A stretch of 64,000 nt of DNA from Parietichytrium sp. I65-24A. Its lineage: Eukaryota > Sar > Bigyra > Thraustochytrida > Thraustochytriidae. This document shows positions 12,995 to 64,000 of the stretch, piece by piece. A program made the translations under genes and the position numbers. Under the pieces are notes generated by a model that saw only the letters and a list, made by a program, of their open reading frames with translations, ran no database searches and was not told where the DNA came from. Every line of letters starts with the position of its first letter. The stretch's first letter is position 1. The DNA lies in NCBI GenBank assembly GCA_012862575.1, contig BLSF01000002.1, positions 682,001 through 746,000 of the forward strand, read 5' to 3'.

Positions 12995-13072
12995 CCATGC
13001 CTTCCAGACGAGGTTTCGCTGACCGAACGTCAACTCCAACGAGTGCTCTCGCGTTTCCGAGACCTTTTTCAC

Positions 13073-13615: not shown

Positions 13616-14394
13616 TCACTTTTTCACTGGAGAGCCAGGAGTCTTTTCAATCATACCACAGTCTTCCACAAACTCCAATTTGTTGCTGAGCAAATCGTCG
13701 CGATAAGCCTCGAGATAAGTGGCGAGGGAGACAGACTCCTCATCCCCCTCTACCTCGCCATCAATGTTGACAGTGAAGACCCCACCCTTGTGGTCGTTTT
13801 CACCTGCCGCAAGAAAATCTCCGTCAATATTCTCTGCGAACGGAACCAATCCGCTCGCCTTCATGACCCCGATTTCAGAGATTCGCTCCGCAGAGAGCAG
13901 CTTATACTCATAGAACCACACCACCGAGTCCTCGTCGTCTACCGCATCTTCGACTTGGGCAAGCAACGAACGCAGTGCCTCCGGCCCAGGCAGCGAGTCG
14001 ACGAGCTTGAGCCTCTTCTTGTTGGAGGAATCAGCTTGCACCTTGAAATACGATGCAATGTCTGTATGAACGATCCTGGTTAGTACGTCGCATCGCGAAT
14101 ATTGCTTGGTAGCGCTCCAAGCGCGATACATTCCAAACTCACCTTTGCACACTTGCAAAACCTCTTTCGGATAGTGGCTAATCGCCTTGGAGCGTCTATT
14201 CTCATTCTCTACCACAGAGACATTCTTGAACTGTCCAATCCGCAGACGCGCGACCAAACAACGGGACGCAAGCAGTCAGCCTTCATTTCTTTCTCTCTCT
14301 CTCTCCCTCGCGCATCCCCCCGCGCAAAACTTACTCCCGAGCACAGGTCGTCTTCGCCCCTGTGCTTGGACTCGTCCGCGTACTTGCCCTCCAT
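13616..14394 (-). CDS. SUKH/SMI1-KNR4-like domain protein, three exons
   Basis: Exons are 14394-14335, 14230-14143 and 14061-13616, giving 197 aa. Intron 1 (104 bp, GTAAGT...ACAG) is phase 0. Intron 2 (81 bp, GTGAGT...ACTAAC...TACAG) is phase 1, length divisible by three, and open in frame, so retention would insert 27 residues. The C-terminal part resembles the SUKH superfamily (yeast Smi1/Knr4, many bacterial immunity proteins): VVWFYEYKLLSAERISEIG, then PFAENIDGDFLAAGEN, then VFTVNIDGE, then SLATYLEAYRDDLL. In the family this is a protein-interaction fold. In yeast it links cell-wall synthesis and signalling. The first exon is short, acidic and probably disordered. The assignment rests on motif order only. 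Confidence 0.65.
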
Positions 14395-14960
14395 CTTCTT
14401 TCTGCCTGCTCACTCCTGCCGCGGCCCAACCTTCTGACCAGCGATCGTTCCACTCGCGCCTCTTCCTCTCTCTTCTCTCTCTCTCTTTCTCTCTCTCTCT
14501 CTGCGCTCTTCTCTTTTTCCATCGCCACGGACAAGACTGTCTGCTACGTTTGCAACTAATTCTATTCTAACAACGCTCAACGGTTATGTTCCAAAAAAGC
14601 TGACTTCTGTGCTTCTGAATTCTGAATTCTGTATTTCTGATGAGTCCGACTGCCCGAGAGCGCATGCGGAAGCCAGGCTTCTCGGAGGAAAGAGTGGTTC
14701 ATTTCCAACTTTCTGTTCATGAACTGACCGTAAATAGAAGAGTCGAAAACTGACTTGGAGATATTTGGCCCTGTTGTTGTGCAGAGATTCTCAAGGCGAA
14801 AGAGAGCTGCGCTGCTGGCCACGGACATGAGATTGTAGACCGTGGGAGTGGTTTTGTATACGCAGGCTAAGCCCGATTGAACGAGCCCGCGGCGTGATTA
14901 TCGCGCGGGCAAACAGCGCCATTCGTGTGCGGGGACGTCCGCTTGGAGACACTGGGGACC
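14395..14960. promoter_or_regulatory. Divergent promoter region, SUKH (-) and WW protein (+)
   Basis: 566 bp separate two start codons. It contains a CT microsatellite (about 14464-14506; GA on the SUKH sense strand) and a doubled TCTGAATTC motif (14613-14630) that also occurs at about 30611 and 48406. No coding signal was seen. Confidence 0.45.
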
Positions 14961-16628
14961 ATGCCAGAGGCTGCAATGATGGAAGGCAAACGCAAAACAA
15001 AGTTGCGCGCCAAAACGCCTCGCGGAGACGCGGAGGAGCTTTCGCGGCTCAGAGGCCGGGTGACAAAGCTGTGCAAAAAGTTTCAACAGATGGAATATTC
15101 TGAGCGGGAGGAGACTCGTGATGCGGACGGGATTCGCAATGAGATCGGGACGCTCACTGAGCTGCTAAAGCAAGTCAAGGTGGCAAAAGCGGAAGCTCTC
15201 ACTTACACTGGGCACAGCCGCGTCGAGCTTGTTGATGAAATCAAAAGACTTGTAGGCATTCTCCACGAAGCCAAGGTGGATGTAGATGACAAGGTCACAA
15301 AGATAGAGACCCTTCGTGCTGATCAAATTGCCCTGCAGGAGAAGAACGAAAAGCTGGCTTGGCGACTGCAAATGGAGAGAGAACACTTTGGCAAGATGCT
15401 CGAAGATGAACGTCGCAAGTACGGAGAGAAACTTCAACAGCTTCAGCTCGGTAGATTAGAGGGCTCTGGAGCAAGTCCCGACTTCGAAGGTAATCAAGAG
15501 ACATCCGTGAGCAAGAACAATGTCGATCCTGGCGACTCAAGTGAAACTAGAGTTCTTGGGCCCGCAGAAGAGATGAGCTCAGATGAGCTGGTAGATTGTA
15601 TTTCGAGCCAAGCAGAAGGGCGAAAGGAATCTGTACAGTTCAACGGCGAGGAGCACACTTGGCGAAAGAGCACAGAAAGCAATGACAAACCACAGCTCTC
15701 CACCTCTCTCTCCAAAGCAGAGTTGGACTCCTATGCAAAAGATCTCGCACAGGTCTTGAAGGAAAACTTGGACGCTGACGATAAAAGCCTTGTGACTGAA
15801 AGCGAAGCTTCCATACCCGGCTTAATTGGCGCAGGAGATGCTTCCTCAGATGAGTATCATAGCGCAGTGCACCGTGAAGAACATTGTACTGCACTTGACA
15901 CTGACAGGGAGAGTTTTCACGATTACGCAGAGGAGAAGAGCAGCTACCTCGAAGAAGCCAAATGTGGTCAAGGGGAAGCAAAGGAAGAAGAGGTATCGAA
16001 CAACCGCCGAGGTAGCTCCATTCGCCCAAAAAGTCGCACGGAGGAAAAACATGAGGACGGGCTCCAGAACAGAAGCAAGAGCTTTCAAGAGTCTGGAAAG
16101 GCTTCGCCCGAAGTGCAAGAGGATTTGACTCTCGAGGCGAAAGCCGCCGATGTCGAGGCGTCCAGTGTCGATGATGAAGAGAAAGAAGATGATGCGCAAG
16201 ACCATGCTGCTCAATTTGGTCGAGACGCTGCTGACAAAGACGATCAAGAAGATGGCGGGGCTGAAGTCAAAAGCACGGACGACGAGGAGGAAGAGGAAGA
16301 AGAAGAAGAAGAAGAAGAAGAGGAAGAGGAAGAGGAAGAAGAGGAAGGGGAAGAAGAGGAGGATAGCGGAGAAGAAGAGGAAGATGAGACTGGCGCACAA
16401 GAAGCCAAGAACTCCATCGAGGAAGAGCAAACAGAGCTTGTTGACGCCGGTCAGGGCAGTGTTTCAGGACTTGCGGTGAAGACGAATTCGAAGAAAAAAG
16501 AAGTTCCGTATGGCTGGACCAGGGAATGGTCAAATTCGAAGCAAAGAAGTTACTACTTTTGCTACGAGAACGGAATGTCGGTTTGGAGAATCGAGGATAT
16601 ACCTCAACAGTTTTATAAGTCGCCGTGA
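14961..16628 (+). CDS. Acidic coiled-coil protein with C-terminal WW-like domain
   Basis: A single exon of 555 aa starts at an ATG in good context (ACC-ATG). Residues 1-20 are basic. About 28-165 is a predicted coiled coil with regular Leu/Val spacing (for example LTELLKQVKVAKAEAL and RLVGILHEAKVDVDDKV). The middle is acidic and disordered, ending in a nearly pure glutamate run (about 440-475). The C-terminus (about 514-547) looks like a WW domain: the first Trp in YGWTREW, then paired aromatics YYF, then the last Trp in SVWRI. The usual final proline sits further on. WW domains bind proline-rich or phospho-Ser/Thr-Pro peptides. No specific family is recognised. It converges on the zinc-knuckle gene 450 bp away. 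Confidence 0.7.
   Translation: MPEAAMMEGKRKTKLRAKTPRGDAEELSRLRGRVTKLCKKFQQMEYSEREETRDADGIRNEIGTLTELLKQVKVAKAEALTYTGHSRVELVDEIKRLVGILHEAKVDVDDKVTKIETLRADQIALQEKNEKLAWRLQMEREHFGKMLEDERRKYGEKLQQLQLGRLEGSGASPDFEGNQETSVSKNNVDPGDSSETRVLGPAEEMSSDELVDCISSQAEGRKESVQFNGEEHTWRKSTESNDKPQLSTSLSKAELDSYAKDLAQVLKENLDADDKSLVTESEASIPGLIGAGDASSDEYHSAVHREEHCTALDTDRESFHDYAEEKSSYLEEAKCGQGEAKEEEVSNNRRGSSIRPKSRTEEKHEDGLQNRSKSFQESGKASPEVQEDLTLEAKAADVEASSVDDEEKEDDAQDHAAQFGRDAADKDDQEDGGAEVKSTDDEEEEEEEEEEEEEEEEEEEEEGEEEEDSGEEEEDETGAQEAKNSIEEEQTELVDAGQGSVSGLAVKTNSKKKEVPYGWTREWSNSKQRSYYFCYENGMSVWRIEDIPQQFYKSP
16276..16386. repeat. GAA/GAG codon repeat encoding poly-glutamate
   Basis: A purine-only tract of GAA and GAG codons lies inside the WW-protein gene. 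The mixture of the two codons shows it is an aged or selected Glu tract, not a freshly expanded perfect trinucleotide repeat. Confidence 0.85.
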
Positions 16629-17078
16629 TTAGCCTTTCTATTGCGAGAAATGCGAGAAAGGACGTCAAGTACGCTCCAGATAGTTGCTGATTTACTGTCA
16701 TATGTGTCTGAAAATCAGAAGAGTCTACTAGAGAGCTAGAGCTTAACCATGAACAACTGTATTCACTGTCAATGTCCGATTTCTCGGAGCTCGCCAACAT
16801 GTGTGCCTGAGGGAGTTGCAAGAAGAACTTGACGCTCGACCGACGGATTTTTCCAGGCATGCGGGCGATTCAAAAGCTGAAACATTGGAAAGAAGTGGCA
16901 GTTTTGATCTGGAAATGGAGACGAACTGGTCGAAAGGAAATTATAAAGATGGGATACTCCGTTTTTAGAAATTATGAGGAGAATTAATGCAATACCGTCT
17001 GCAGATCAGTCAGTGATAAATGGAAAGTTTTTTTTGATGAAGCGACCAGTTGAGAGTGAGTATCCCGTCGTTTTTCAA

Positions 17079-18311
17079 TTAGGGCTCTGTTTGTGGACAA
17101 GCCGAACTTAAGTGACCAAATTCGCCACACTGGGGTTTGTATTCAAGCGAGTCAGTAGAGGAGAAGCATTTTAGATTGCGCGCGAACGCTGGTAACTTAC
17201 AGAGTAGCACTTTGGCCCGGCGTCTTTCCCCGGACAATCTTTAGAAATATGACCCACGTCGCCGCTACGATTTGACAAGCAGAACGAACGGAGAATGTAA
17301 GACAAGTTGGTTGGTTAGGAACTCTGAGGACCAAGGGCTTCCAGTCTCTTGTCCAGTGTGTTTTTAACCAGTGAAAAGAGATGGAAGGATACATGCAAGG
17401 CGGCGAGTGGAGCTTACCAGTTGTAGCACTTTTGACGGCGGCGCTGAGGTGGCTTAGGTGCGTCGTCGCTAGCTTCGTTTTTGCATACTCTCGAAATGTG
17501 CCCTTCCTTCCCACATCGGAAACAGGTCTTAACGCCTCCGCTATGATACATTAAAAGATTTACGACACCACCAACGCAAAACGCATCAATTTTCCGCAAA
17601 ATTTTGGTAAGCTACAAAGTGCAAAACGGCAAACCACTCTACCACAATTGGGCCTCCGATTGCTGGATGGAACTTGAAAGAGCATCAATTAGATTGAACC
17701 CCCTCCCCCCCGTTTGTTGTCACCGAGTCAGTGCGAGCGCAGCATGCTCAATGAGGAGGCTACTCTACGCGAGGCTCGAGAGCCCGGCATTGTACCGTAC
17801 TAGGAAATAGCTTTCCTTTTTTGCCTGTGCCCCTCTCCTCGGGATGGGGTTGGTGCATTTTCACTACGGCTGAATGAGTCCTACATCAACTACCTTCTCT
17901 ATACCTCTCTGACAAGTTTAATAATGGAGCCGCAGCCGCCTCGGGCATATCGCAGAGCAAATGTGATGCACAGCAGATCAGGCGCAAGGGTCTCGCACGA
18001 GAGCTCTTGCCAAAAATCGCCTCGGCACGGCGAGATCACTCTGCTTGCTTTGCCGAGTTGCCCCTTCACTTTCAGGATCTCCATCTGATAGCGTTCCATC
18101 CCATTCTCCAAGGTGACGAAAATAAGTCGGCCGGCATTTGACTTCTCGTCACCTTGGCCACGTCGCCCCACCCACCCTCTCCCTCCCTCTCTCTCAAATG
18201 TTGGTCCCTAACTTACCGTGGGCAGTCTCTGGCCAGGTGCTCCGCCTGGCCACAGTGAAAGCAGGCCTTCACTTTCGCCTTTTCTGCGATTTCTGCCTCA
18301 TCTTGGCTCAT
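17079..18311 (-). CDS. CNBP/Gis2-like protein with four CCHC zinc knuckles, four exons
   Basis: Assembled from splice signals: exons 18311-18217, 17540-17418, 17264-17201 and 17129-17079, with GT-AG introns of 676, 153 and 71 bp, giving 110 aa. The frame and length agree exactly (333 nt). The protein has four C-x2-C-x4-H-x4-C knuckles: CFHCGQAEHLARDC, CFRCGKEGHISRVC, CYNCGDVGHISKDC and CYSCGEFGHLSSAC. A basic, Pro-rich spacer sits after the second. CNBP/Gis2 proteins bind single-stranded RNA/DNA, especially G-rich sequence, and associate with translating mRNAs. Seven knuckles are usual in animals and yeast. Four is short but occurs in related proteins. Introns 2 and 3 cut knuckles 3 and 4 at nearly the same place, at the second Cys. 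A 90-codon open frame inside intron 1 (18171-17899) shows no knuckle and is treated as chance. Confidence 0.88.
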
Positions 18312-18411
18312 CGCGCACGCTGTTGCCGGCCGCGCGCACACCTTCTCCGTGCCCTTGTTCCAGCCCGTTTTCTGCTTGCTGTCTCTCTGTCTTTTCTATT
18401 CCCGCAGCGGC

Positions 18412-18462
18412 GGCTCCTCCTTCTCCTCCTTCTCCTCCTTCTCCTCCTTCTCCTCCTCTCGT
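18412..18462. repeat. CTCCTCCTT nonamer repeat
   Basis: About five tandem copies of a nine-base pyrimidine unit lie 100-150 bp upstream of the CNBP-like start. It is polypurine on that gene's sense strand. Confidence 0.85.
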
Positions 18463-18597
18463 CGAAAGCCACTCACGGCGCGCGTATGTTTGGCGTTCTC
18501 CTCCTTCCTGTGCCACTGCTCTCTACTCTCTGCTCTCTCACTTGCGCGCTATTGTCCGCTGCTTATTCTGTTGCGAGTCTGGCTCATTCTGCCTCTT

Positions 18598-18660
18598 CCC
18601 CTCTCTTTCTCCTTTCTCCTTTCTCTCTCTGTCTCTCTCTGTCTCTCTCTCGCTCTGTGT
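18598..18660. repeat. CT/CTGT microsatellite
   Basis: A pyrimidine run (CTTTCTC and CTCTCTGT units) lies about 290-350 bp upstream of the CNBP-like start codon. It is a GA tract on the sense strand of that gene. Confidence 0.8.
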
Positions 18661-18802
18661 TGTGCGTCCCTCTCTTCCTCTGCGGAGGGCTTCTGACAAG
18701 AGCTTCTGAATAGGAATTACTGTTATGGTTTGGCGTAGAACACAGCTAAGCTGGTCAGAGTTCTGGTCGGGTGTGTGGTAACTTCTTGGTTGTCGTTTGG
18801 TT

Positions 18803-18820
18803 GTGGTGGTGGTGGTGGTG
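18803..18820. repeat. GGT trinucleotide repeat
   Basis: Six GGT units lie in a gene-free region. Confidence 0.85.
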
Positions 18821-19118
18821 CTGGCAATCCGTTGTTAGCAAGGGGTTAGGGCAAGAGAGTGATGTTGAGAAAGGGGTAGAGTAAACGGTGGTTGATCGAT
18901 GATGAGTATTACTAAGCTATTCTTGATTCCTCCTCTGCCCTAGGTACAGATAAGCCACTCGATAATGAGAGGGGGAACAAGTCGACAGTGGGGCCAGCTG
19001 CTGTTTCGAAGAGCTGGAAGAACCAATTGTGGATCAAAACTTGCTGAGCAAAAGCTGCTTGAGCTTCTGCTCGGTTATAATGTGAGGCATGGGCTCAAAC
19101 AGGGACGAGTCGTCCACG

Positions 19119-19145
19119 AGAAGAAGAAGAAGAAGAAGGAGGAGG
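19119..19145. repeat. GAA/GGA trinucleotide repeat
   Basis: A run of GAA units changes to GGA units, in a gene-free region. It makes a Lys/Glu-rich chance reading frame. Confidence 0.8.
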
Positions 19146-19333
19146 AGGCAAGGCTGCCTTGCCGTCCACGCACGCAGAGAAAAAAGGAATTTATTATTAC
19201 GACCAAGTTTGACTGGGAGCAGATAGAAACTGGGCTGCGACGCTGCGACTGCGACTCTGACTGCGATTGAAGGCGGGAACCACTTGACAACGACTTTGCC
19301 GTCCGGTCGCGCCCGGGCACAGTCCTGGTGTCC

Positions 19334-19369
19334 TGGTCACGGTCACGGTCACGGTCATGGTGACGGTCA
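19334..19369. repeat. GGTCAC hexamer repeat
   Basis: About five imperfect tandem GGTCAC/GGTCAT/GGTGAC units lie in the gene-free region upstream of eIF3f. Confidence 0.8.
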
Positions 19370-20433
19370 ATCTATTCCCAACAGCGACAATGGTACTGCG
19401 TAAACGACACGCATCTTAAGTTGGCAAGTTAGACATGTCATGCTTGACTAGTGTGAAAATTGTACCACTGGACTCTCAGCAAGCGATGTATCGACTGTAT
19501 CGACTCTCTAAGCTAACACTCTTGGTTTTGAGATGCTCATGCAGCATTCCGCGACTTCGGCAAAGCTTAGAGCGCTCGAGAGAAGGGATTTATTTGTGCA
19601 ATAAGCCAGCAGAAGAGGTCAACTTCAACGCTTTCTCTCTCTCAAAGTTGAAATCGATCACAACTAATGCCTGAGCGCGAGAAACGTAGCACAAGTTAAC
19701 CATCAAGGATTCCCGGAGAGGCGAGACTAGCAGCGGGCGCCCTGCTTTCTCCTTCTGGCGAGCGGGAAGAGAAGTTGGTGAGAATCTGCAAATAAGCGCT
19801 CTTTGAAGCTACCTTCAAGGAATCTGGAAGCCGCCAGATGCAGCGAGCTTTTCGGCCCGCACTCAAATCGTAACAACAGAGGGAATAGAAAAGGGGGATT
19901 AGGAACCAGCCTTTTGAAACTTGTGTCCAAGCTCGAGCATTCTTGTCAACCTGAACTTGTACCAGCACCTTTACAGCGCCTTTGCACGGAGAAATAAAAT
20001 TGTGAATTTTGCTCTTTCAAGGATCAGCTCGGACATGGTCTGCTCTGCGTCCGTGAGAGGCCGTCGTTGCCGAGCTCCTCCTTTCCCTATCTCATATTCT
20101 TTCCAGATTAAAAAAATTCTACTTCTTCGACTATCTGCAATTGAGAAACAGATGTATTCAACAGTTTTCTATTTTTTCAAATGTTTTAAAAAAAAAAATT
20201 GAAGAGTGAAGCTGTGATTTTGAACGCTTTCGAATAAACATGATCTAATAAGGCGAAACTTTGCTGAATCAGAGCAGAACAATGAGTCAATATAGATTCT
20301 GTGGACGGACCGATACCGATGGACAAAAGAACAGAGAGAGAGCCACAAAGCCATCTTTAACGAAGCAGCTTTCAAAATTGGTCCAGTCGTGACCCTCTCC
20401 CTCTTGCCTCTCAATCAAAGCCACTCGCCGAGA

Positions 20434-20500
20434 GCATGAGACGCGAGACACGTGAAACACGTGAGACGCGTGAGAGGCGGGAAAGGCGGGAGAGGCGAGC
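20434..20500. repeat. Degenerate GAGACGCGTGA repeat with two CACGTG boxes
   Basis: A decayed tandem repeat built around GAGACRCGTGA contains two CACGTG palindromes nine bases apart (20449-20454 and 20458-20463), the core recognised by bHLH/bZIP-type factors in many eukaryotes. It lies about 960 bp from the eIF3f start, so a regulatory role is only a possibility. Confidence 0.5.
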
Positions 20501-21171
20501 GTGAGTGAAGTGCGTTTTTTTTGGCTCTTGCATTTATTTTCTTTTTCTTTGGTTCTCCTCTTTTCTCCTTCTTCCTCCCGCTGTTAGGATGGGTATGGAA
20601 CAGTTGAGGATCCCCACAAGGCGAACACACGAGGTCGCTAGGACTATCCCCTCAGGGCCTCGTTGAGGATGAAATTCTTAATAGAAACTTATGCAAGGCG
20701 GTAGACGTTCGTCGGATGTACATTCCTCCCGTCAACCAACCTGTTGGTAGTACTTCTTACTGGAAATTTAACACTGTGCCAGGAGATGCAGCAGAGATGT
20801 AGGCGCAGTACAGTACCTATGCGATCGTATAACTGTGTGCGCTGCTGGCTGGAGAAAGAATTCTACGTTCTCCCGTCAAAATCAACTGATTGCCTCTACA
20901 CAATCCACTCCTACGTTTCGTCCTATTTAAGCTCTACAGCTTCTGACAATTTCATCCCGTCCACATCGCAGCTCGTCGTTGTCGGCGCAGCTGACTTCAA
21001 GCGAGCAGCTCTTTGTTCATCCAATGCGTTCCCCAGGTTAGGGCGTAGGTTAGGGCTCGTGCTGGGTGGATATGAGCGCTCGAACTCAAGGCTAGCGGCG
21101 CCTATCGCTTGCTATGGGCTCCTTGTTGGTGGATAGTGGCGACTGGGTCAAAGAGAGGAAACGAGAAAGGA

Positions 21172-21220
21172 TAGAGAGAGAGAGAGAGAGATAAGAGAGA
21201 GAGAATAGAGAGAGGGGGAC
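21172..21220 (+). promoter_or_regulatory. GA microsatellite upstream of eIF3f
   Basis: A polypurine run of GA dinucleotides on the sense strand lies about 200-250 bp before the eIF3f start, followed by a second GA-rich patch near 21340-21366. The position and strand match the GA tracts of other genes here. Confidence 0.5.
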
Positions 21221-21421
21221 GGAGAATGTCTAACGGAGATACCGTGATGGGTAGAAATCTGGGATTGGATTACGGAAAACGTAGTAAAGTGGAGGAGTAG
21301 AAAGTGTACGCGGACAGCTAGTGGGATCCTCGGAGACAGACAGATAGAGGGAGAGAAAGAGAGGCATTTGGTGAGCTCCGAGATAGTTTGTGAGAGGGTT
21401 GAGCTATTGGGACGATCAGAG

Positions 21422-22309
21422 ATGGCTGAGGGAGGAGATTCGGAGCGGGTCAAGCAGGTGGTGAAGATCCACCCAGTGGTGCTGTTCTCGATCCTGGACC
21501 ACTACATCCACAGGAATGACGGACAAAAGAGGGTAATCGGGACGCTGCTTGGAACCAAGACCTCGAGCACGATCGTGGTGAAGAACTGCTTCCCGGTGCC
21601 TCATGTAGAGAAAGGCCAGGAGGAGGTCGCCGTGGGCAAGGACTACTCGAAACATATGCTGCAGTTGCACGAGAAGATCAACGCGAATGAAGAGGTTGTG
21701 GGTTGGTACGCCACCGCTATTGGAGATGGCCCAATGATCAATCACCAGAGTTGTCTGATTCAGGACTTCTACAATGCAGAGTGCATTGATCCAGTTCACC
21801 TTGTTGTTGATACTTCGCTGACTAACCACATGCTCTCCGTCAAAGCCTTTCTTAGTGACTCTATTCAGCTTGGCGAGAGTGTGCTGGCAGCATCGTTTAA
21901 CCAGCTCAAGGTTGAGCTTCAGTGCTCCGAGCCTGAGAGGATTGGGTTGGACATGATGATCAAGTCTTCCACAACAAAGCGCCTTGACACAACCAAACAG
22001 CTCGAGGACTCGCATGAGATTAACTCGGATATTGAAAACCTGGAGCAATCTGTAACCCGTCTGCTCTCCATGCTTGAGACGGTGAGCGCATACGTAGATG
22101 ATGTCGTGGCAAAGCGCAGGCAGCCAGACTACAAGATCGGAACCCGGATCGCCAGTGTGGTGTCCATGGTGCCACGCATCCAGCCAGAGCTCTTTGCAAA
22201 GACTTTTAGGAACAACTTGCAAGACCTTTTGATGGTGGTCTACTTGTCCAACATGACCCGCACGCAACTTGCCGTTGCAGAGCGCATCGGAAAGACTCCA
22301 ACTGCTTGA
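21422..22309 (+). CDS. EIF3F: Eukaryotic translation initiation factor 3 subunit F
   Basis: 295 aa, single exon. The ATG at 21422 is followed by an acidic start (MAEGGDSE). The protein is an MPN-domain subunit of eIF3, which gathers the 43S pre-initiation complex on mRNA. Matches seen: KIHPVVLFSILDHYIHRN, RVIGTLLGT, KNCFPVPH, EEVAVGKDYSKHML, VVGWYATAIGDGP, IHLVVDTSL-like VHLVVDTSLTNH, and ERIGLDMMIKSS. The metal-binding HxHPx7SxxD of active JAMM peptidases is absent (the site reads INHQSCLIQD), as expected for the MPN-minus eIF3f. The C-terminal helix NNLQDLLMVVYLSNMTRTQ is the family's interaction helix. CSN6 and PSMD7 are relatives, but the motifs fit eIF3f best. Confidence 0.93.
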   Translation: MAEGGDSERVKQVVKIHPVVLFSILDHYIHRNDGQKRVIGTLLGTKTSSTIVVKNCFPVPHVEKGQEEVAVGKDYSKHMLQLHEKINANEEVVGWYATAIGDGPMINHQSCLIQDFYNAECIDPVHLVVDTSLTNHMLSVKAFLSDSIQLGESVLAASFNQLKVELQCSEPERIGLDMMIKSSTTKRLDTTKQLEDSHEINSDIENLEQSVTRLLSMLETVSAYVDDVVAKRRQPDYKIGTRIASVVSMVPRIQPELFAKTFRNNLQDLLMVVYLSNMTRTQLAVAERIGKTPTA

Positions 22310-22732
22310 TTTGATAGGGTAGATCTTTGTGGTCCGTGACTAATTCTTTTTTCCCCTACATTTGTACTGCGACGATATCTCCTTTATAATTTTCTTCTCC
22401 CCCCTTTCTTTCTTCTATCACGTGCCGTTTTCAACTCAACTGCACCCCGTGGCTTCGTCACCTAAATGAAACTTTGTCCTTTATTCTGCTCTGTGCGTCT
22501 TGGCTTGCAAGAGAAGCTACGTGTAGAGTTTTCGTAGTCTAGTTTGGACGACGTCATGTTGTTCGAAAATTTGGAAACGTTCTCACTTTTCAAAACGTAA
22601 AACGTTGAATTCTTTCTTTTCACCTTCAATCTTAAATTTCTTTCTTTAATTAATCGACCATCAAACAGGAACTATTTTAGAAAACATGAGCGGCAGGCAG
22701 GTGAGATTCACACAAAATAACATTCATACCTG
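22310..22732. other. Convergent 3' region between eIF3f and Hv1 genes
   Basis: About 420 bp, rich in T and AT. It ends near two closely spaced stop codons. No gene or repeat is recognised. Confidence 0.45.
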
Positions 22733-23746
22733 CTAATTTGTCGGTATCTCCTGCTGTCTTTGCGTATCTTGGGAGCTCTTATGCCGTGAGGCAGAAACAC
22801 CGGGTCGCGCGCCTCCTTGACTGTCATCAGCTGTCGGATCAGGAGATGGGAGATCTTCGCCGTCCGAGAGCGGCTCAAACTCCGAGTCATCATCATCGTC
22901 CCCGTTATCGCCAGTCAGCTCTCGCTGCTCTTGGATAAATTTGTCAAACTCCTGCTTCTCCTCCTCGCCAATGATTTCGGCTATCGACTCAAGGCCTTGA
23001 ACTTTGGCCATGGTCTGAGCAGCGATCTGCAGCGCTTCGCGCATGGTATCGAGCTCCTCCTTTTGAGCACGAAAGGTCTGCTCAAGACGCTTGTATTTTT
23101 CGATCTCCCTCCTGTGCGCCAGCTCTGACTTTTTGACTCGCAACTTCAAGCTCTCTACCTTCTCTTCGGATGCTACAAGCTTGTCCTTGGTGGCTTCGTG
23201 GGCCTCTTCGTTCGCAACTAGCGCTGCATTGACCATTCGTGCGACCCTCCAGAAACGAAAAATGTTCAGCAACTTCATTGCGGCAGCACGCTCCGGGACA
23301 CCGGAAGGCTCATTACTCGACATCATCCCGTAAAACATGGCTCCGACGATCACGATGTCCAGAGAGTATCCAAAGTGCGAGAAAGTGCTTGCTTTGTAGG
23401 CTCCCAGCACAAGGCCGATCTCAAACATGAACACCAATAGACTAATCCCGGACTGGTACTCCAAAATTCTGACAAATGGGTCGTTCCAGCCCTTGGCTTT
23501 CGCATACAGCTGATAAAACCCGCTCAGCAGGTCAATAACAATCAACACAACCACCACAAGCTGAACTTCCTGCGACTGCACCAGGTTCCCAACCCGAGAG
23601 AATGTCGTCAATTTCTCCTCGCTGATCGCATCTTTCCCTGTCTCAGACTGCCTTCTCGCGCTCTCTTCCAGCCGAGCATCTTCTTTCTGCTGCACATTCC
23701 GCTTCCGGATGGCTGAAAACTCCTCGAAAGAGAGGTCCGAGGACAT
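22733..23746 (-). CDS. Voltage-gated proton channel Hv1
   Basis: 337 aa from the ATG at 23746 (an open extension upstream starts only at a TTG). Hv1 is a four-helix voltage sensor that itself conducts protons outward on depolarisation. It acts in pH control, and in some algae in calcification or signalling. Seen: S1 with the selectivity aspartate (D72 in VLIVIDLLSGF), S2 with E109 (FMFEIG), S3 with D130 (YSLDIVIVG), and S4 with the signature F-R-F-W-R-V-A-R, giving R164, R167 and R170. A long coiled coil (about 180-285) follows S4, as in Hv1 dimers, then an acidic tail with an aspartate run. Human Lys157 in S2 is a valine or neighbouring residue here. The N-terminus is charged and helical. 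It shares a 930 bp divergent region with the LRR-ankyrin gene. Confidence 0.92.
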   Translation of the reverse strand: MSSDLSFEEFSAIRKRNVQQKEDARLEESARRQSETGKDAISEEKLTTFSRVGNLVQSQEVQLVVVVLIVIDLLSGFYQLYAKAKGWNDPFVRILEYQSGISLLVFMFEIGLVLGAYKASTFSHFGYSLDIVIVGAMFYGMMSSNEPSGVPERAAAMKLLNIFRFWRVARMVNAALVANEEAHEATKDKLVASEEKVESLKLRVKKSELAHRREIEKYKRLEQTFRAQKEELDTMREALQIAAQTMAKVQGLESIAEIIGEEEKQEFDKFIQEQRELTGDNGDDDDDSEFEPLSDGEDLPSPDPTADDSQGGARPGVSASRHKSSQDTQRQQEIPTN

Positions 23747-24264
23747 TTCTCCTTCCACGCCTCCACGCCTCTGCCTAGGAGAGTTTCTATAGCAGCCACT
23801 TTTGTGGCTCTGTACAGCGCAAACAAACTTCTCAAAACGCCGATTTGGGACAGTACTCGCGGACACTCGCCGGCTCACACGTCCCACTCTCTCTCTTAAA
23901 ATCAATGAAAACAATTGCGCAAATTGTATAAAGCTGTATCAAGCTTCACTAGGACACCTCACTCTGCTCACGGTATACCCCTCTGAAACTATGAAAACGG
24001 TTGGGAGAACAAAGAAGAGCTCTTCGGGTCCTTTTGGAGTCTTCGCTATTGTTCTTCTGTATGTAAGCCACGTGATGGTGCGCAAGAGCTCCAACAAGAA
24101 ACGACGTAAAAATGACTTGATGCAGCACTCGCTCAGCTCGCATCAGCGTCTCTTGGGCACTCACTGTCAATTCCCTATTCACCATTCGCCATTGGCCACA
24201 GCTTCGTTTATTCATTCACTATTCACTATCAATCATATCAACCAATGAAAAGCCATTGTTTGAA

Positions 24265-24307
24265 TGAGTGAGTGAGTGAGTGAGTGAGTGAGTGATAGAT
24301 AGATAGA
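24265..24307. repeat. TGAG and GATA tetranucleotide repeats
   Basis: About seven TGAG units are followed directly by three to four GATA units in the Hv1/LRR-ankyrin intergenic region. Confidence 0.85.
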
Positions 24308-24402
24308 TCCGGTGAAACGAATGAGACCGTGACACTGGCAGTGACTGTGACTGTGACACTGTCAATTAACAATAGCAAGTTCGACTTGCTGCTACAGTGA
24401 GT

Positions 24403-24461
24403 AATGGGCAATGGGCAATGGGCAATGGGCAATGGGCAATGGGCAATGGGCAATGGGCAAT
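24403..24461. repeat. ATGGGCA heptamer minisatellite
   Basis: About eight perfect tandem copies of a seven-base unit lie 215-270 bp before the LRR-ankyrin start. The perfection of the copies suggests recent expansion or active length change. Because seven is not a multiple of three, it reads in all frames as a periodic peptide, which explains chance open frames here. Confidence 0.9.
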
Positions 24462-24625
24462 GAATGAGCTATTTGCGTGCGGAGCTTGAGGACGAGCAAG
24501 TGAAGGGAGGGAGGCAGGGAAGAGAGGAAGAATTTGGGCAAGTGCAGAGTTAGCTGCCGTAGCTGCGCGTGGGTGTGCGATTGAACAGCGACCCGTTGGT
24601 GGAGGAGCGGCAAGAATATTGGAGG

Positions 24626-24649
24626 CCGGGCAGCCGGGCAGCCGGGCAG
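24626..24649. repeat. CCGGGCAG octamer triplet
   Basis: Three perfect copies of an eight-base GC-rich unit lie 26-49 bp upstream of the LRR-ankyrin ATG, probably within its 5'UTR. Confidence 0.85.
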
Positions 24650-24674
24650 CGAGCGTGCGCACGAGCAGAGAGCG

Positions 24675-27329
24675 ATGGAGACGGGCGTGGATGGAGACAG
24701 CATGGAGGAGCTCCGGCAAGAGAATGCAGCGCTCAGGCGGCAGGTCGAGGATCTTCGGAACGAGCTTTTGATATCGGAGGATGCAGCGACGACACACAAC
24801 TCCTCGGAGCAGCAGGGCGGAGAAACTCCGAAGAATATTAATAAAATGCGAGCTCAGAATAAGTCCCTGTTCAACAGGCTCGCGGCCCAGAAAGCGGCCA
24901 CCGCGACTGCGCAGGATGAGCTAAAGAAGAGGGACGCGCAAATATGTATTTTGACTGAGCATATTGAGAAGCTGATGAATACGCTCAAACAGCAGGGCAT
25001 GGCGAAGAAAGAAGCGGCTCAAAAGGCAACAGAGCTGTCAAAAGATCTCGATTCCGCGCATGTGGAGCTTGGCAAATTGAAAGAGTCCACGAAAGTGGCC
25101 AAGTCGCAAGCATTCTCGCTAGGCAAACAAGACGTCCTGCTAACCAAGCAATTGCAAGTGATGGACAACAAGTTCCAAAACTTGTATCGAACGTATCAGC
25201 AGACCAAATCTCAAGCAGCCCGCAAAGACCAAATGCACGCCATGCAGATTGAGCAGATCTCCAATTGGGTGTGGACGACCAACAACAAGATTAACGATAT
25301 GGTCACGGCAAGGACCAACACGCTATTATCCGCTCTTAAGCTATTCGAGTCCATATACGGTCAGATGAGTTGCGCCGTAGTCGACTTCCAGGACTGCATG
25401 CTCAGGGATGTGGGCGTGAAAGCTCTCGCTCGAACCATCCAAGCTGTGGTCGCAAGACAGGTGCAACGAAAGGAAGCGTCGCAGCAGGCGCATGCTAAGC
25501 GGTTTGAAGCTTGGAACAGAGGCGGCGGGCACGGGCCGATCCCCACGTTTGGGAGCCAGGCACAAGGGTTGCCAACCAAGTCTTGCGTGCTCAATCTTGC
25601 TTACAACGGAATCACAGATAAAGGCGTCAAATCTCTTGCTGTGGCGTTGGCAAAGTGCAAAAACATCACCGAAATAGATTTGCGGGGCAACCAAATCACA
25701 AAAAAGGCGATCCCGTTCATTGCGGATGCTCTCATGTACAATGGAAACATTGAGGCGGTCGATCTCAGTGGAAACTATTGCTCCAAGGACGACCTGGCAA
25801 ACTACATTGAACGGCTGAGCACGAGAGAGAGTGAGGCTTTGGCGGAGCAGGCACCGAGTGGAGAAGTTCTCGCGGAATCCGACACAGATACGGACAGCGA
25901 GGCGGACAACAACGTAGCACAGCACACAGGCAGCAGTAATCGGACTTTGCCAGTCCTCAGTTCATTTGACAAATACGATCACAGCCTTTTTCGGTATCGA
26001 AGTGTACCAAGGCCAAAAAGCGCTCCGCCACGTCCGTACACGACAAAGGAGGAGAGAATGCCAGACTCTTATTTGCCGGAGCACGCCTATCACTCCGAGC
26101 ATAAGGCAACGGAGCTTCACAAAGTGAGGCACAGTGATATTCTGCGACATATCACTCGCGCGCGACTTTTTCCTCCTCAAAAGTCGCCGTACTCGGCTCT
26201 CAGCCGGATCACACTGGACAGTATTTCCTCCAAACAAGCCCAGAATCCAGATCGTCGGATCCGCCCACGACCTGAGTCAGCCATGATCAGTCGAGATGGG
26301 GGCCAAGAACTTCCAAATTTGGCATCCGCCATGACCAAGCAAGTCACCGGCAGACCCTCCAGCGCGATACCCGGGGTGAGCACAACAAGCGGCGGCAAAA
26401 TCAAATTCGGTCCAAGTAAAATTCGCAACAGACTTCAGGTGTCAACAAGCATCCCGGTCCAAAAATCGCAAGGGTCCCCTGCTTCACAATCTCATTCGAT
26501 GCTGCCATCTCCGACGAAAAGCGGAAAGGTGACCCTGTTAGGGTCGCCGTCTGCATCTAGGTTCTCCCCAGCTGCGAACGGAAAGCGATCCACTCATCCG
26601 AAAACCAGAGATGCTTTCGCTGAGCCTGAGAGTGTGGATGAAAGCGGTGATCAGGAGCTCCCAAGAGATCAATCGTCTAAAGAATTGGACACAAAATCTT
26701 ATGCGCCTCCTAGTATGCAATGCGTTTTCTCATACGCCCGAAAGGGCAACATCGGCGGGATCCTGAACTTTATGAAAAAGATTGAACCCAGCCCTCTGAT
26801 GGCGAAGGCGCCACTTTCGTTCCATCCGGACATGAGGCAAAATGAAACGGGCGAGACCGTTATTATGCACGCTGCTCGCGCTGGGCAAAAACAGGTCGTC
26901 GAGCTAATGCTTGAGAAAGGCGGCGATATCAATATGCTCAGTAATGAGGGATGGACTGCACTTCACCACGCAGTTGATGCCGGCCAATTTGAGATGCTCG
27001 AGGCTCTGCTTCAATACGGATGCGATCCGAATCTGGGAGCTGGATATTCGTCAGGAACCGCTCTGCACTTGGCCCTGAGACTCGTGAGTTTTGAAGCGGT
27101 CTGCAAATTGCTTGAGCACAGGGCCGTAGATATTGAAAGTCGCGATAGGAAAGGGCGCTCACCTCTACATATTGCAGCGTTATCTGGCCGCGTTCATATC
27201 GCCAACCTGCTCCGACAACATGGTGCGCGAGGCAGTTGCAAAGATCGAAAGGGGAAGTCGCCCTTGGAGTACGCGCAAAGCCGAACAGATGTAGCGATGG
27301 AGGAAGCTCTGCGGCGTTTCAATAATTAG
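24675..27329 (+). CDS. Coiled-coil, leucine-rich repeat and ankyrin repeat protein
   Basis: Single exon, 884 aa. Domain order: coiled coil (about 10-190, with leucine-spaced heptads such as ALRRQVEDLRNELL), a helical linker, two RNI-type leucine-rich repeats (about 300-375; LNLAYNGITDKGVKSLAVAL and IDLRGNQITKKAIPFIADAL, then VDLSGN), a long basic, Ser/Pro-rich disordered middle (about 390-675), and a C-terminal ankyrin block of four repeats (about 680-875) with TVIMHAARAG, GWTALHHAVDAG, TALHLALRL and SPLHIAALSGR. Both repeat types bind proteins. The combination suggests a scaffold, perhaps cytoskeletal or ciliary, but that is a guess. No catalytic motif is seen. Few LRR copies are present, so more may have decayed. 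Confidence 0.82.
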   Translation: METGVDGDSMEELRQENAALRRQVEDLRNELLISEDAATTHNSSEQQGGETPKNINKMRAQNKSLFNRLAAQKAATATAQDELKKRDAQICILTEHIEKLMNTLKQQGMAKKEAAQKATELSKDLDSAHVELGKLKESTKVAKSQAFSLGKQDVLLTKQLQVMDNKFQNLYRTYQQTKSQAARKDQMHAMQIEQISNWVWTTNNKINDMVTARTNTLLSALKLFESIYGQMSCAVVDFQDCMLRDVGVKALARTIQAVVARQVQRKEASQQAHAKRFEAWNRGGGHGPIPTFGSQAQGLPTKSCVLNLAYNGITDKGVKSLAVALAKCKNITEIDLRGNQITKKAIPFIADALMYNGNIEAVDLSGNYCSKDDLANYIERLSTRESEALAEQAPSGEVLAESDTDTDSEADNNVAQHTGSSNRTLPVLSSFDKYDHSLFRYRSVPRPKSAPPRPYTTKEERMPDSYLPEHAYHSEHKATELHKVRHSDILRHITRARLFPPQKSPYSALSRITLDSISSKQAQNPDRRIRPRPESAMISRDGGQELPNLASAMTKQVTGRPSSAIPGVSTTSGGKIKFGPSKIRNRLQVSTSIPVQKSQGSPASQSHSMLPSPTKSGKVTLLGSPSASRFSPAANGKRSTHPKTRDAFAEPESVDESGDQELPRDQSSKELDTKSYAPPSMQCVFSYARKGNIGGILNFMKKIEPSPLMAKAPLSFHPDMRQNETGETVIMHAARAGQKQVVELMLEKGGDINMLSNEGWTALHHAVDAGQFEMLEALLQYGCDPNLGAGYSSGTALHLALRLVSFEAVCKLLEHRAVDIESRDRKGRSPLHIAALSGRVHIANLLRQHGARGSCKDRKGKSPLEYAQSRTDVAMEEALRRFNN

Positions 27330-27512
27330 ACCAGCAGTCACCGACTTTAAGATATATCAAAGCTTTGTCCCACAAGGAACGAAAACTGTCTTGGAAATTA
27401 GAATGTAAAAATGAAACTAACTACTAGTAGTAGCTCAAAAATATACAGAAGAAGAGAAAGATTACTTATGATATGCAGAAAGGAATGGCTGTTAAATTAG
27501 CTTTGCCACAGA

Positions 27513-29654
<2,142 letters not shown>

Positions 29655-59890: not shown

Positions 59891-62020
59891 ATGGCGCAGC
59901 GGAGCAAGTATACTGGAGTGGCGTTCAACAAGCTTGAGCAGCGGTGGCGAGCGAGGTATGTGCGCAAGGATGGGAAGCGGGTGTGGGTGCCCGACTCTTT
60001 CGATAACGAGGAGGATGCGGCCCGAGCGTACGACCGCGCAGTTGTGAGCGACGGATTGCCGGCGCAGACGTTGAACTTTGGAGACGCAGCTGCGAGATTT
60101 CCCACTGAGGCAACCGGTTCAATAGGGGAGAAGACCAAGACCTCAGTGTCAAATGACGCTCAAGGAGCCGGAAAAGCTGCCGCAGATGACGAGGGTTGGC
60201 AGGTGGTGAGCCGAAAGAAGGATAGCAGGAAACGGAAACTGGCAGACGCAGCGGCTGCCGAAGCAACGGGCGCCAATGAAGGCGTGAAGGAACCCGAGGG
60301 CCCTCCGCCGTCGCTCGCACCAACCAATGGTGCTGCTCCGGCCAAGGAAACTCCAACTGGTTCAATACGCGAACTCACAGAATTCGAGCTCCGGGAAGTC
60401 AAGCGCCGTGAGAAGAAGCGAGACAAGAAAAAGCGCAGAAAATTAGAAAAGCAGATGGGCGGTTCTTTCGCAAAGCAAGAAGAGTCGATGGAGGCCCCTG
60501 CAAAGCCTGTCCGCGTGGTCGATCCGATGTGGTTTACACAGAATAAGTGGAATCCAGTGACCAGCTTCCCAATCAGATTCCCGTTAGACACCAGCGAGTC
60601 TCAAAATCCTGTGATGCTCAAATTCGTCCACTCGGTATCGCAGATGTACCAACTTGTCAACTGCGAAAAGTATTTGTCCCCTTTGTTGGAAACAATTGAA
60701 GCAGAAAAAGCGATGTGGCGATTCTCGCAACCTAATGAATCAGCTTCGAAGCACGCAAAGCTGTATGCTATCGATTGCGAAATGATTCGTTGCAGGAAGT
60801 CTTCCGCTTGCGAGGATGAGCAGCCGGTTCCCGTTCTCGCACGTGTCAGTGTGGTCCGTTGCGATTTTGACGCCAGCGGGGAGTTGAGCTTTGCATTAGT
60901 CATGGACCACCTTGTGAAAACCCCAGAGCACTACGTCGTCGTTGACTACGTTTCTGACATATCCGGAATGACGAAGGAGATGCTTGACGAGGCCACATGG
61001 ACTCTGGAGGATGTCCAGTCCTCCTTGGAGGCCATCATTAAAGCGAATGATATCCTGGTGGGGCATTCGTTATGGTCGGATCTTGCTGTCCTCCGTTTCT
61101 GGCACGGAAATTTTGTAGACAGTGCACTCATTTTCGGCGTGAAGGGCTACCCGGGAATAACACTCTCCTTGAAGGATGTTGCAAAAGCTGTAAATGATTC
61201 TTCTGGTGCGTTGAACGACTACGATGAATCCACGTTTCAAGTCGAAGGAGAGGCTCACGATAGTATCGTAGATGCCAAAATTGCTGTGAATGTGCTAGCG
61301 CACATCTTCTCTGAGAGCCACGTGTTTGACGCCTCGGACGTTGTACCTACCCTCCTTGACAACATCCCAGAGCGCTTCAAAAGCCGAATTACCTTTCGCC
61401 TTGTCCCAAAAGAATTCTCGGAGCAAGATATTAAAGCCCTTTTGGAGGTGACTGCCTTAAAGAAGAAAGATTCGCCTGCCATTCATGGGTATGTCATTAA
61501 GCCGTTGCGTTGGCACGTAAGAAAGGACGGCAGTACCACAGGTTCTGCGGTGATAGAGTTCGCAAATGCGGATGACTCCAAGTTCATCTTTGATCAACTT
61601 CAAACCGCAAAGACCGGATGCGGTGGCTATACAAATTGCGGGCCATGCTATTCTACTGGTTTCCCAGACAACACAGGCATGCAACGCAAACTAATCACGT
61701 TGCGCTCACAATCTTCCGGCGAAGAGGAGAACTGTGAAGTGGTTAGCTATTTTACCTGCGCTCTGGGTTACAAGAAAACTGTTCAGATTAAGGCTTCTTT
61801 ACTTGGGCGCGTGGTGGGCAAGTACGGCCGTACGCTGCTTATGATGCAGCAAGTAACCGGTTCTCGCATTCGTATCACGAGACAACCCGCTCGCGACTCG
61901 AAGGTTCCTGAGCTGGCCAACTTCGGGGAGTGCCTTGTGGAGGCAGACTCAATCCCCAAGCTGAAGGCCGCAGTCTTGCTCCTGGATAAGGCCATGCGCA
62001 AAGAACTTGACCTGAACTGA
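59891..62020 (+). CDS. AP2/ERF domain + DEDDh 3'-5' exonuclease + KH domain fusion
   Basis: 709 aa, single exon. Residues 5-63 are an AP2/ERF DNA-binding domain: KYTGVAFNKLEQRWRARYV, KRVWVPDSF, DAARAYDRAV and a closing LNFGD. A charged linker follows (KREKKRDKKKRRKLEK). About 285-480 is an REXO1/Rex1-type RNase domain with the DEDDh acids: AIDCEM (D295, E297), the central LVGHSLWSDLAVL, and AHDSIVDAK (H456, D461). Known family members trim 3' ends of RNAs such as rRNA, tRNA and snRNA. About 510-570 resembles an RNA-recognition fold with Cys-rich GCGGYTNCGPCYS. About 630-690 is a KH domain with the GxxG loop in VVGKYGRTLL. The gene thus joins DNA-binding, RNA-binding and RNase parts. The first codons upstream are open, but the ATG at 59891 fits the AP2 start. 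Confidence 0.88.
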   Translation: MAQRSKYTGVAFNKLEQRWRARYVRKDGKRVWVPDSFDNEEDAARAYDRAVVSDGLPAQTLNFGDAAARFPTEATGSIGEKTKTSVSNDAQGAGKAAADDEGWQVVSRKKDSRKRKLADAAAAEATGANEGVKEPEGPPPSLAPTNGAAPAKETPTGSIRELTEFELREVKRREKKRDKKKRRKLEKQMGGSFAKQEESMEAPAKPVRVVDPMWFTQNKWNPVTSFPIRFPLDTSESQNPVMLKFVHSVSQMYQLVNCEKYLSPLLETIEAEKAMWRFSQPNESASKHAKLYAIDCEMIRCRKSSACEDEQPVPVLARVSVVRCDFDASGELSFALVMDHLVKTPEHYVVVDYVSDISGMTKEMLDEATWTLEDVQSSLEAIIKANDILVGHSLWSDLAVLRFWHGNFVDSALIFGVKGYPGITLSLKDVAKAVNDSSGALNDYDESTFQVEGEAHDSIVDAKIAVNVLAHIFSESHVFDASDVVPTLLDNIPERFKSRITFRLVPKEFSEQDIKALLEVTALKKKDSPAIHGYVIKPLRWHVRKDGSTTGSAVIEFANADDSKFIFDQLQTAKTGCGGYTNCGPCYSTGFPDNTGMQRKLITLRSQSSGEEENCEVVSYFTCALGYKKTVQIKASLLGRVVGKYGRTLLMMQQVTGSRIRITRQPARDSKVPELANFGECLVEADSIPKLKAAVLLLDKAMRKELDLN

Positions 62021-62488
62021 GCCCCTCGGCTAATTTAGGGCGATTTTTGTGACTGAGAATGTTCCCATGTATGTGTGTCTCTGGAAATGCTTTCCACTCA
62101 CTTTTGAAAACAGATATAGCGCTTGTATTCGAAAGAAGTGCTTTTCTATTTTTTTATTAAGATCGCAATTGAAGCTTTGAAGCACAAATCATTTGTTTGT
62201 TCCAAGTCTGGCGCCATCTTCTCTGTTGCGCAATCACCCTCTTCGAGCACTCCTCTGACTCACCGCAAAGTCCTTCCTTCTCTGTTTCAATTCGTGTCGG
62301 TTCCGACAAGGACTGAGAGTGAGTAAGGTCAGCCAGCACTCCTCAAGCCTTTTGCGTGGACCAATTTCGCATGACCTGCCAGAACATTACAAGTCGCTTA
62401 ACCGGTATCGAACCGGAACTAAAGAATCAATCAGAAACCAAAATGTAAAACCAAAACCAAAACCAAAACCAAACCAAAACCAAAACCA

Positions 62489-62523
<35 letters not shown>

Positions 62524-62950
62524 CAACACAACAACAACAACAACAANAAACCAAAACCAAAACCAAAAACCAAACCAAAACCAAAACCAAAAACCAAAAG
62601 ACGGCGCACACCTTCCACGAACGGTAATGCTCCAGCTAGAGATCCGTACAGCATATTGCTGTTCGAGGACATTTAGTTGAACACAGTAGTGTGCCCACGT
62701 ACATTTCAAAAACAAATGGTAGTTAGGAATTTGATTTTTGACTTTTGATTTGGAAAGTGTTGTGCAAGTGACATTAGTCAATTTTGGGTGAACTTGAACT
62801 TGAACTTTGACAGGCAGAAAGGCAGAAAGGCAGAGAGCGCATTGGGTTGTTCACGCAGCAGTCACGGAGTTTCCCCGCGTCGAAGGTAGCGCCAAGAGTC
62901 GAGGACACGTGAGAATCGGAGAGACGTGGTCCAGAAAGGGAGTTGGCAAG
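62021..62950. other. Intergenic region with CCAAAA/CAA repeat
   Basis: 930 bp without a recognised gene. The main feature is the CCAAAA and CAA microsatellite at 62452-62600, which also contains the only undetermined base (N at 62547). Close to the downstream gene is a GGCAGAAA triplet (about 62814-62837). Confidence 0.5.
62452..62600. repeat. CCAAAA and CAA microsatellite with an assembly gap base
   Basis: Hexamer CCAAAA units flank a CAA (with CAACA) run. An N at 62547 sits in the repeat, so the true length is unreliable. Confidence 0.9.
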
Positions 62951-64000
62951 ATGAAATTCACCGTGACAGCCGGAGACATCAGGAACGGGCAGCATAGGTC
63001 GCTGGCAAGTGAGAACAGGTTCGGAGCTCTTCAAAGTCCAAGCCCATCGAAAATTGCAAAGGTGTGCAGGAAAGCGCGACGGAAGAGGCGCGTTGTTGGG
63101 CCAAAAGAAGCGAGCGGGCCAGTGATCGTCAAGGTGGGCAACAGACGCTCAGCATGCCAAATCTTCAGGCTCTACATGCAAGACACGAAAAGCAGGCTTG
63201 CTGCAAAGGTTCGTGTCAAGTTGGGCCTTGCAGTCGGCGCTTTGCAGCGAGCATGGAGTGGGTGCAGGCGAGTGTCCCATGTGGGTTCTTCCATTGTGGA
63301 GAAAGTCAAGAGCCGAGCCAAGGCAGTTTCAGTCGCGCCAGCTGCTCCATCCCGTCTGGATATGCTGGAGGAAAAGCTGAACCTGATTGTCTCTCGTCTT
63401 GATAAGCTCGAGTCGGCAAAGCCAAACGATGTTCGGGAACGCCAAGCCCAAACACAAGTACAAGCACAAGCCGAACCGGTAAAGCCGCAAAGTGCTCTCC
63501 CAGTTCGAGAGGAGGCGAAAACGGACAAGACACTGGAAAAGTACACGCGAATGATCAGAGTGGGGGTTCCGGAGCATGCGGTTGCACTTCAGATGAAGAA
63601 AGACGGCAAGGATCCTCGGGCTCTGTTTCCAGAAGAGACTCTTCTGGAGGAGGAAGTCGAGAAGACCAAAAAAGACGCCATTTGGAAGGCAGAGTCTCAG
63701 TCACGGCAGGAAACGTCTGAAACCCCGACTAAACGAAACCTCTCACCGCCAAGGGCCCCAAGGCCCGTGATCACAGCGAGCGATTTGCTTAAAGCCAAAT
63801 TACGATCAACACCCCAAAAAGCGCCAGCTCCACCAAAGTTGGTAAGGTCACCCAGTGCAGTCATTTCGAAGGACCAGCTCGCATCGATTCGTTTAAAAAA
63901 ATCGACAAGCTACAACTCGCCGTTGCCCAAAAGATGTGTTATCCAGCTGGCTGGGAGCGTTGAAAAATTGAGACTAAAGAAAACTTGTATTGAGCGCTCC
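62951..64000 (+). CDS. Partial gene with WASHC3/CCDC53-like motif, continues past the right edge
   Basis: An open frame starts at the ATG 62951 and runs 350 codons to the end of the window without a stop, so it is truncated by the window, not broken. The N-terminal part is basic with hydrophobic helices (LAAKVRVKLGLAVGALQ). A coiled coil follows (SRLDMLEEKLNLIVSRLDKL). About residues 195-223 is a motif seen in WASH subunit CCDC53/WASHC3 and near actin-nucleating domains: YTRMIRVGVPEHAVALQMKK then DGKDPRALFP. A Pro/Ser/Thr/Lys-rich stretch (SPPRAPRPVI) follows, with repeated short DLLKAKLRS-like and LASIRLKKS-like motifs. A role in actin or endosome regulation is only suggested by the motif. 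The rest of the protein is out of sight. Confidence 0.65.
   Translation, partial: MKFTVTAGDIRNGQHRSLASENRFGALQSPSPSKIAKVCRKARRKRRVVGPKEASGPVIVKVGNRRSACQIFRLYMQDTKSRLAAKVRVKLGLAVGALQRAWSGCRRVSHVGSSIVEKVKSRAKAVSVAPAAPSRLDMLEEKLNLIVSRLDKLESAKPNDVRERQAQTQVQAQAEPVKPQSALPVREEAKTDKTLEKYTRMIRVGVPEHAVALQMKKDGKDPRALFPEETLLEEEVEKTKKDAIWKAESQSRQETSETPTKRNLSPPRAPRPVITASDLLKAKLRSTPQKAPAPPKLVRSPSAVISKDQLASIRLKKSTSYNSPLPKRCVIQLAGSVEKLRLKKTCIERS

Follow-up and report, generated by a model that had tools for sequence, protein, structure and literature searches.

An AP2 domain in one open reading frame with a DEDDh exonuclease and a KH domain in the thraustochytrid Parietichytrium sp. I65-24A

The open reading frame and its surroundings

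The window, by which we mean the whole stretch of 64,000 nucleotides analysed from Parietichytrium sp. I65-24A, contains near its end a single open reading frame in which an AP2 domain, a DEDDh exonuclease domain, a probable RRM and a KH domain follow one another (Table 1). The AP2 domain, the exonuclease and the KH domain had been proposed in the first-pass annotation, and their presence in one frame was borne out by Pfam, by an AP2 HMM derived from the same genome and by the match of the exonuclease to SDN1. Upstream, the frame is limited at 59630, after a TAG codon. The start given in that annotation is indeed the first in-frame ATG of the 709-codon frame; since the next in-frame ATG corresponds to M189, past the AP2 domain, the latter could be omitted from the product only via internal initiation or another transcript.

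Table 1. Position of the coding frame and of its parts in the window
Feature	Position	Strand	Residues	Remarks
Whole coding frame	59891-62020	+		709 aa and TGA stop; open 59891-62017
AP2 domain, divergent	59903-60079	+	5-63	Pfam and own-genome HMM
Charged linker	60089-60502	+	67-204	29 Lys+Arg, 23 Asp+Glu
Region ahead of exonuclease	60503-60748	+	205-286	
DEDDh 3'-5' exonuclease domain	60749-61330	+	287-480	RNase_T and SDN1 match
Probable RRM	61385-61708	+	499-606	long loop with three Cys ahead of last strand
Type I KH domain	61772-62008	+	628-706	GKYG loop at 643-646

Codon bias was computed from a training set of 33 further long frames in the window and in other loci of the genome (20210 codons). 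It was positive in frame in all seven segments of the coding region (0.117 to 0.274), one reverse frame being slightly positive too, at 0.053 in the NTD segment and 0.005 in the DEDDh segment. Some 30-codon windows of the frame were at or below zero, with a minimum of -0.16 near residue 296. Between the AP2 and the exonuclease domains there is no stop in frame, and the coding bias runs through the linker, where it reached 0.170 in frame against -0.071 to -0.285 in the other five frames. When the linker DNA was submitted to 20000 mononucleotide shuffles, 76 were open and 1 had a bias as high as 0.170. The linker holds two GTRAG sites, at 60206 and 60408, which makes a hidden in-frame intron conceivable. 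It also contains a short motif, GWQVVSRKK (window 60194-60220), and its Lys/Arg-rich stretch (residues 161-188, 60371-60454) could, judging from composition, be a nuclear localisation signal. No Pfam family matched residues 201-291 at E values up to 10; residues 205-286 sit where SDN1 has its N-terminal domain, an analogy by position only.

From the 3' end of the gene, 77 bp (window 61936-62012) recur with 100% identity elsewhere in the genome (G000:C27, about 357283-357359; L010 1506-1582), in the 3' flank of a gene that we named by eye as encoding an eL8-like ribosomal protein. This copy lies between two 16-bp direct repeats and has the appearance of a templated insertion that occurred recently and duplicated its target site. 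Downstream of the gene, positions 62440-62610 of the window hold simple repeats of CAA and CCAAAA, including a single N, and the next frame on the plus strand (62807-64000), which runs past the window end, matches CCDC53, a subunit of the WASH complex (1.5e-9).

Sequence relationships of the domains

The Pfam AP2 profile (PF00847) matched the whole protein with an E value of 7e-6 and 26.7 bits, under the curated cut-off of 33.3. For the own-genome HMM, residues 1-66 were compared with 19 other AP2 frames, 17 of which yielded segments in 23 rows; the two rows with an i-E-value above 0.1 were left out, and the resulting 21 segments excluded the target protein itself. This HMM gave 45.4 bits on the protein, the best of 1000 shuffles of the protein reaching 9.4. 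The domain, although below the Pfam cut-off, thus scores far over shuffled sequences and belongs to the AP2 profile family. Its former designation as a plant-type AP2/ERF domain can be kept for AP2 but not for plant-type, the domain resembling the AP2 set of its own genome but lacking both the near-invariant RGV Arg and an otherwise invariant Gly. The closest solved AP2 structure was that of ERF096 (5wx9, E value 1.1e-4).

Several positions of the domain depart from the 21 paralogous segments. R8 of the RGV motif, an Arg in 19 of them (Asp and His in the other two), is Thr here; G35, present in all 21, is Asp; and S11, conserved in 17, is Ala. There are also one-residue insertions at position 27, where 20 of the 21 paralogs have a gap, and at position 34, where all 21 do. 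The core positions G9, V10, W19, A43, A44, D48, N62 and F63 are retained. The Arg matching R8 contacts DNA bases in AtERF1, and this base-contacting Arg, the mark of AP2/ERF DNA-binding factors, is replaced by T8. The combination of R8T and G35D makes canonical DNA binding by this domain doubtful. With a near-invariant Arg and an invariant Gly both lost, recognition of DNA or chromatin becomes a guess; the AP2 domain may have a partner other than DNA, and binding to RNA, itself a guess, is at least as open a reading.

The AP2 fold comprises three strands and one helix. A single-sequence model of residues 1-80 showed two strands followed by helices with a mean pLDDT of 46.3, too poor to count either way, and a Foldseek search with this low-confidence model gave no match at E ≤ 0.001, the AP2 structure 6sy0 appearing at a meaningless E value of 4.7. 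According to the accessible part of one survey, apicomplexan-type AP2 genes are absent from the stramenopiles scanned there (PMC4501334), a statement that leaves other AP2 types unaffected.

In the exonuclease domain, the RNase_T profile of Pfam gave an E value of 1e-4 and 23.3 bits with the whole protein, against a cut-off of 24. The four catalytic residues listed in the first-pass annotation, D295, E297, H456 and D461, were correctly placed, and the fifth, D397, is present as well, so that the set is complete and the domain belongs to the DEDDh exonucleases. These five residues align with D144, E146, D228, H278 and D283 of SDN1, in which mutating any one of them abolishes activity, as stated in the available text of PMC6123492. 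SDN1 (PDB 5z9x) was the one strong solved relative, with E values of 1.4e-13 for the whole protein and 4.1e-14 for the domain alone; ISG20L2 came next when the exonuclease domain was searched alone (0.028). The sole NCBIfam match was to the DNA polymerase III epsilon family, far below threshold (16.7 bits versus 236).

When SDN1 was used as a query on the genome, another frame, C3, scored higher (69.3 bits) than the target protein (55.7), so the two are not reciprocal best matches. The best solved match of C3 is ISG20L2, and we take this frame to be REXO4-like. Other DEDDh frames include C16, which is PAN2-like with UCH_1 and RNase_T domains, C61, which is TREX-like, and two more, C20 and C5. 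In a nine-sequence tree, two rows of which are partial, the target protein paired with SDN1 with a weak support of 66. Because SDN1 prefers C3 and the support in the tree is weak, we label the domain SDN/Rex-like and make no claim of orthology; the target protein and SDN1 are not nearest to each other by sequence in both directions, and the former is not assigned to the SDN family.

Between the exonuclease and the KH domain there is probably an RRM, overlooked in the earlier description of the frame: RRM_1 gave 13.7 bits and an E value of 0.056, without reaching its cut-off of 20.7. The three Cys of the motif CGGYTNCGPC (window 61619-61648), in the loop preceding the last strand of this probable RRM, may form a metal site or a disulphide. 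In a single-sequence model of residues 476-709, the RRM region had the RRM-like order strand-helix-strand-strand-helix-strand, with a mean pLDDT of 38.8 that is too poor to count for or against. Foldseek found no match for this low-confidence model at E ≤ 0.001, and the best 50 matches listed name no RRM or KH protein.

The type I KH domain was recovered by KH_1 (PF00013) with an E value of 8.1e-4 and 19.5 bits in the whole protein (cut-off 21.5), and with 6.5e-5 and 23.0 bits, over the cut-off, when the KH part was searched alone. The GxxG loop seen previously is present as GKYG. The KH_1 alignment spans profile positions 3-40 of 66, the second half of the domain being assigned by eye, and the matches in the PDB were the KH domains of IGF2BP1 and NOVA-2 (E values 0.01-0.02).

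Occurrence of the combination in the genome and in the literature

We searched the host assembly (42.5 Mb, 172 contigs) for each of the three domains. For AP2, the 37 matches at E ≤ 0.01, of which 10 exceed the cut-off, correspond by our own count to 33 frames including the target; RNase_T gave five matches at E ≤ 0.01 and KH_1 35 at E ≤ 0.05. Among the matches found, the frame at 59891-62020 is the only one in which two or more of these domains occur together. The profile searches were run exon by exon, so that genes split by introns may be missed and all counts are lower bounds. Pfam (E ≤ 0.1) detected no nuclease, KH or RRM domain in the 26 other AP2 frames that were scanned, out of 32. Two AP2 frames, L042 (G000:C76) and L043 (G000:C46), have TFIIA-like matches before the AP2 domain (2.1e-5 and 0.0042, both below cut-off), perhaps due to composition.

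No second copy of the fusion was found in the genome at E ≤ 0.01 with the whole protein as query; the ten places recovered at this threshold are the target itself, other AP2 or exonuclease frames with partial matches, and one fragment of the target's 3' end. Pattern searches for close relatives in eukaryote-poor collections gave 37 matches in viral contigs and 34 in genome contigs, among which no ortholog was confirmed. In the open-licence literature, we found no paper on an AP2 domain with an exonuclease in a thraustochytrid, nor on exonuclease, KH and AP2 domains together. The architecture is an unusual combination of known parts, in one genome so far, although it may still have been published.

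The host is apparently a non-photosynthetic eukaryote, its genome yielding no chlorophyll-binding protein at E ≤ 0.01 in a search whose control was positive in 1 of 14 genomes. A tandem-ACP PUFA synthase is the usual mark of thraustochytrids. PP-binding gave at least 11 matches, with no tandem acyl-carrier array among them, so that this test lends no support to a thraustochytrid carrying such a synthase. Two giant open frames, of 4460 aa with three acyl-carrier domains (G000:C7, about 19811-27643) and of 5583 aa with five (G000:C66, about 7956-22997), have these domains kilobases apart and are perhaps giant modular polyketide synthases.

Proposed function and comparison with known systems

We consider that the gene most likely encodes one protein, with the order AP2, charged linker, DEDDh, RRM and KH, that acts in RNA 3'-end trimming with AP2 as an added tether, and give this reading a probability of about 0.6. 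Its likely substrates, deduced from the relatives of the exonuclease, would be non-coding RNAs that are small or structured. The metal-dependent pocket of the DEDDh domain would accept the 3' end of such an RNA, and the 5' part of the molecule would be gripped by RRM and KH, much as it is by the RRM of SDN1. Attached through its long charged linker, the AP2 domain would serve as an extra nucleic-acid-binding tether, bringing the enzyme to its work site by contacting either DNA or RNA. This mechanism is proposed because the role described for the SDN1 RRM in the accessible text of PMC6123492 was taken as a model.

Two further readings, both compatible with this trimming enzyme, differ from each other in what the AP2 domain would bind. 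It may have been remodelled to bind either the substrate RNA or a partner protein, the whole then being an RNA-only enzyme; we hold this for a serious possibility, if somewhat short of an even chance. The substitutions R8T, G35D and S11A and the insertions at 27 and 34 favour it, as does the fact that the remaining recognised domains are nuclease and RNA-binding folds, but the eight core AP2 positions are kept and two of the 21 other AP2 segments also lack the Arg. A working DNA-binding AP2 domain, which would place the exonuclease at chosen loci for co-transcriptional 3'-end trimming, appears unlikely. The homology established with the own-genome HMM, the abundance of AP2 domains in this genome and a long charged linker whose Lys/Arg-rich stretch suits a tether agree with it, whereas the same three substitutions and the presence of AP2 in single copy speak against it. 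A little less likely still is a locus-guided RNA exonuclease in the strict sense, in which a sequence-specific AP2 domain would dock the RRM/KH-armed enzyme on particular genes or repeats and the 3' ends of their transcripts would be trimmed or degraded where they are made.

The remaining readings question either the gene or its pathway. That the AP2 domain belongs to a separate transcript, or that a hidden linker intron alters the product, is improbable. Introns do occur in this genome (judged by eye, Exo I of the C20 exonuclease seems separated from the remainder, and a GT-AG intron seems to be present in the eL8-like gene), and the linker has its two GTRAG sites; against this stand the in-frame coding bias of the linker, the rarity of open frames among its shuffles, and the lack of any stop or second in-frame ATG before M189. 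The kinship with SDN1, the nearest solved relative, and the agreeing position of the RRM also raised the turnover of Argonaute-bound small RNAs. We regard this as very improbable for want of a Piwi match in the genome (E ≤ 0.01, introns ignored; the control was positive in 1 of 14 genomes, that of M. jannaschii), which points away from such turnover on Argonaute. The PAZ search was empty too but carries no weight, no control having been positive.

AP2 domains are known chiefly from transcription factors. If an AP2 domain indeed belongs to an RNA 3'-end processing enzyme, it would either tie locus recognition directly to RNA trimming or exemplify an AP2 fold recruited for RNA. The catalytic module being ordinary, the interest of the protein lies in the addition of AP2 and KH and in whether these additions are conserved in the lineage.

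Among known systems, SDN1 is a protein of 409 aa with the order NTD-DEDDh-RRM, in which binding and processivity depend critically on the RRM (PMC6123492, from the text available). The protein described here resembles it by the five catalytic residues, by a probable RRM C-terminal to DEDDh and by a further region N-terminal to it, and differs by its AP2 and KH domains, neither of which SDN1 has according to the same text. The Rex1/REXO1 comparison made in the first-pass annotation stands for the kinship of the DEDDh domain, but the closest solved relative is SDN1, and the C-terminal half has a probable RRM and a KH domain and no KIX or CHORD. In the accessible part of PMC12129344, the sequence marks of Rex1- and Rex3-related enzymes are DCEM in Exo I, DL in Exo II and IQ before Exo III; DCEM and DL are present here, with FQ in place of IQ. 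These two marks and the central DEDDh domain recall Rex1, Rexo5 (NEF-sp) and Sdn5, and the twin RRMs of vertebrate REXO5 are likewise C-terminal to DEDDh (PMC12129344, same part). In the Rex1 clade, as that text describes it, DEDDh is inserted in an alkaline-phosphatase-like (AlkP) domain, whereas in our protein the weak RRM match and the KH match occupy the space after DEDDh and Pfam finds no AlkP-type domain in the whole sequence. Rex3/REXO1, with a related DEDDh domain, has KIX upstream and CHORD beside a DEDDh that is C-terminal (PMC12129344, same part); membership in this group was rejected, DEDDh being central here and neither KIX nor CHORD matching in Pfam at E values up to 10. The terms "AP2" and "KH domain" have no occurrence in the accessible main text of that paper. 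With AP2/ERF and ApiAP2 transcription factors, finally, the protein has the AP2 domain in common, but here this domain stands in one frame with an exonuclease and carries R8T and G35D.
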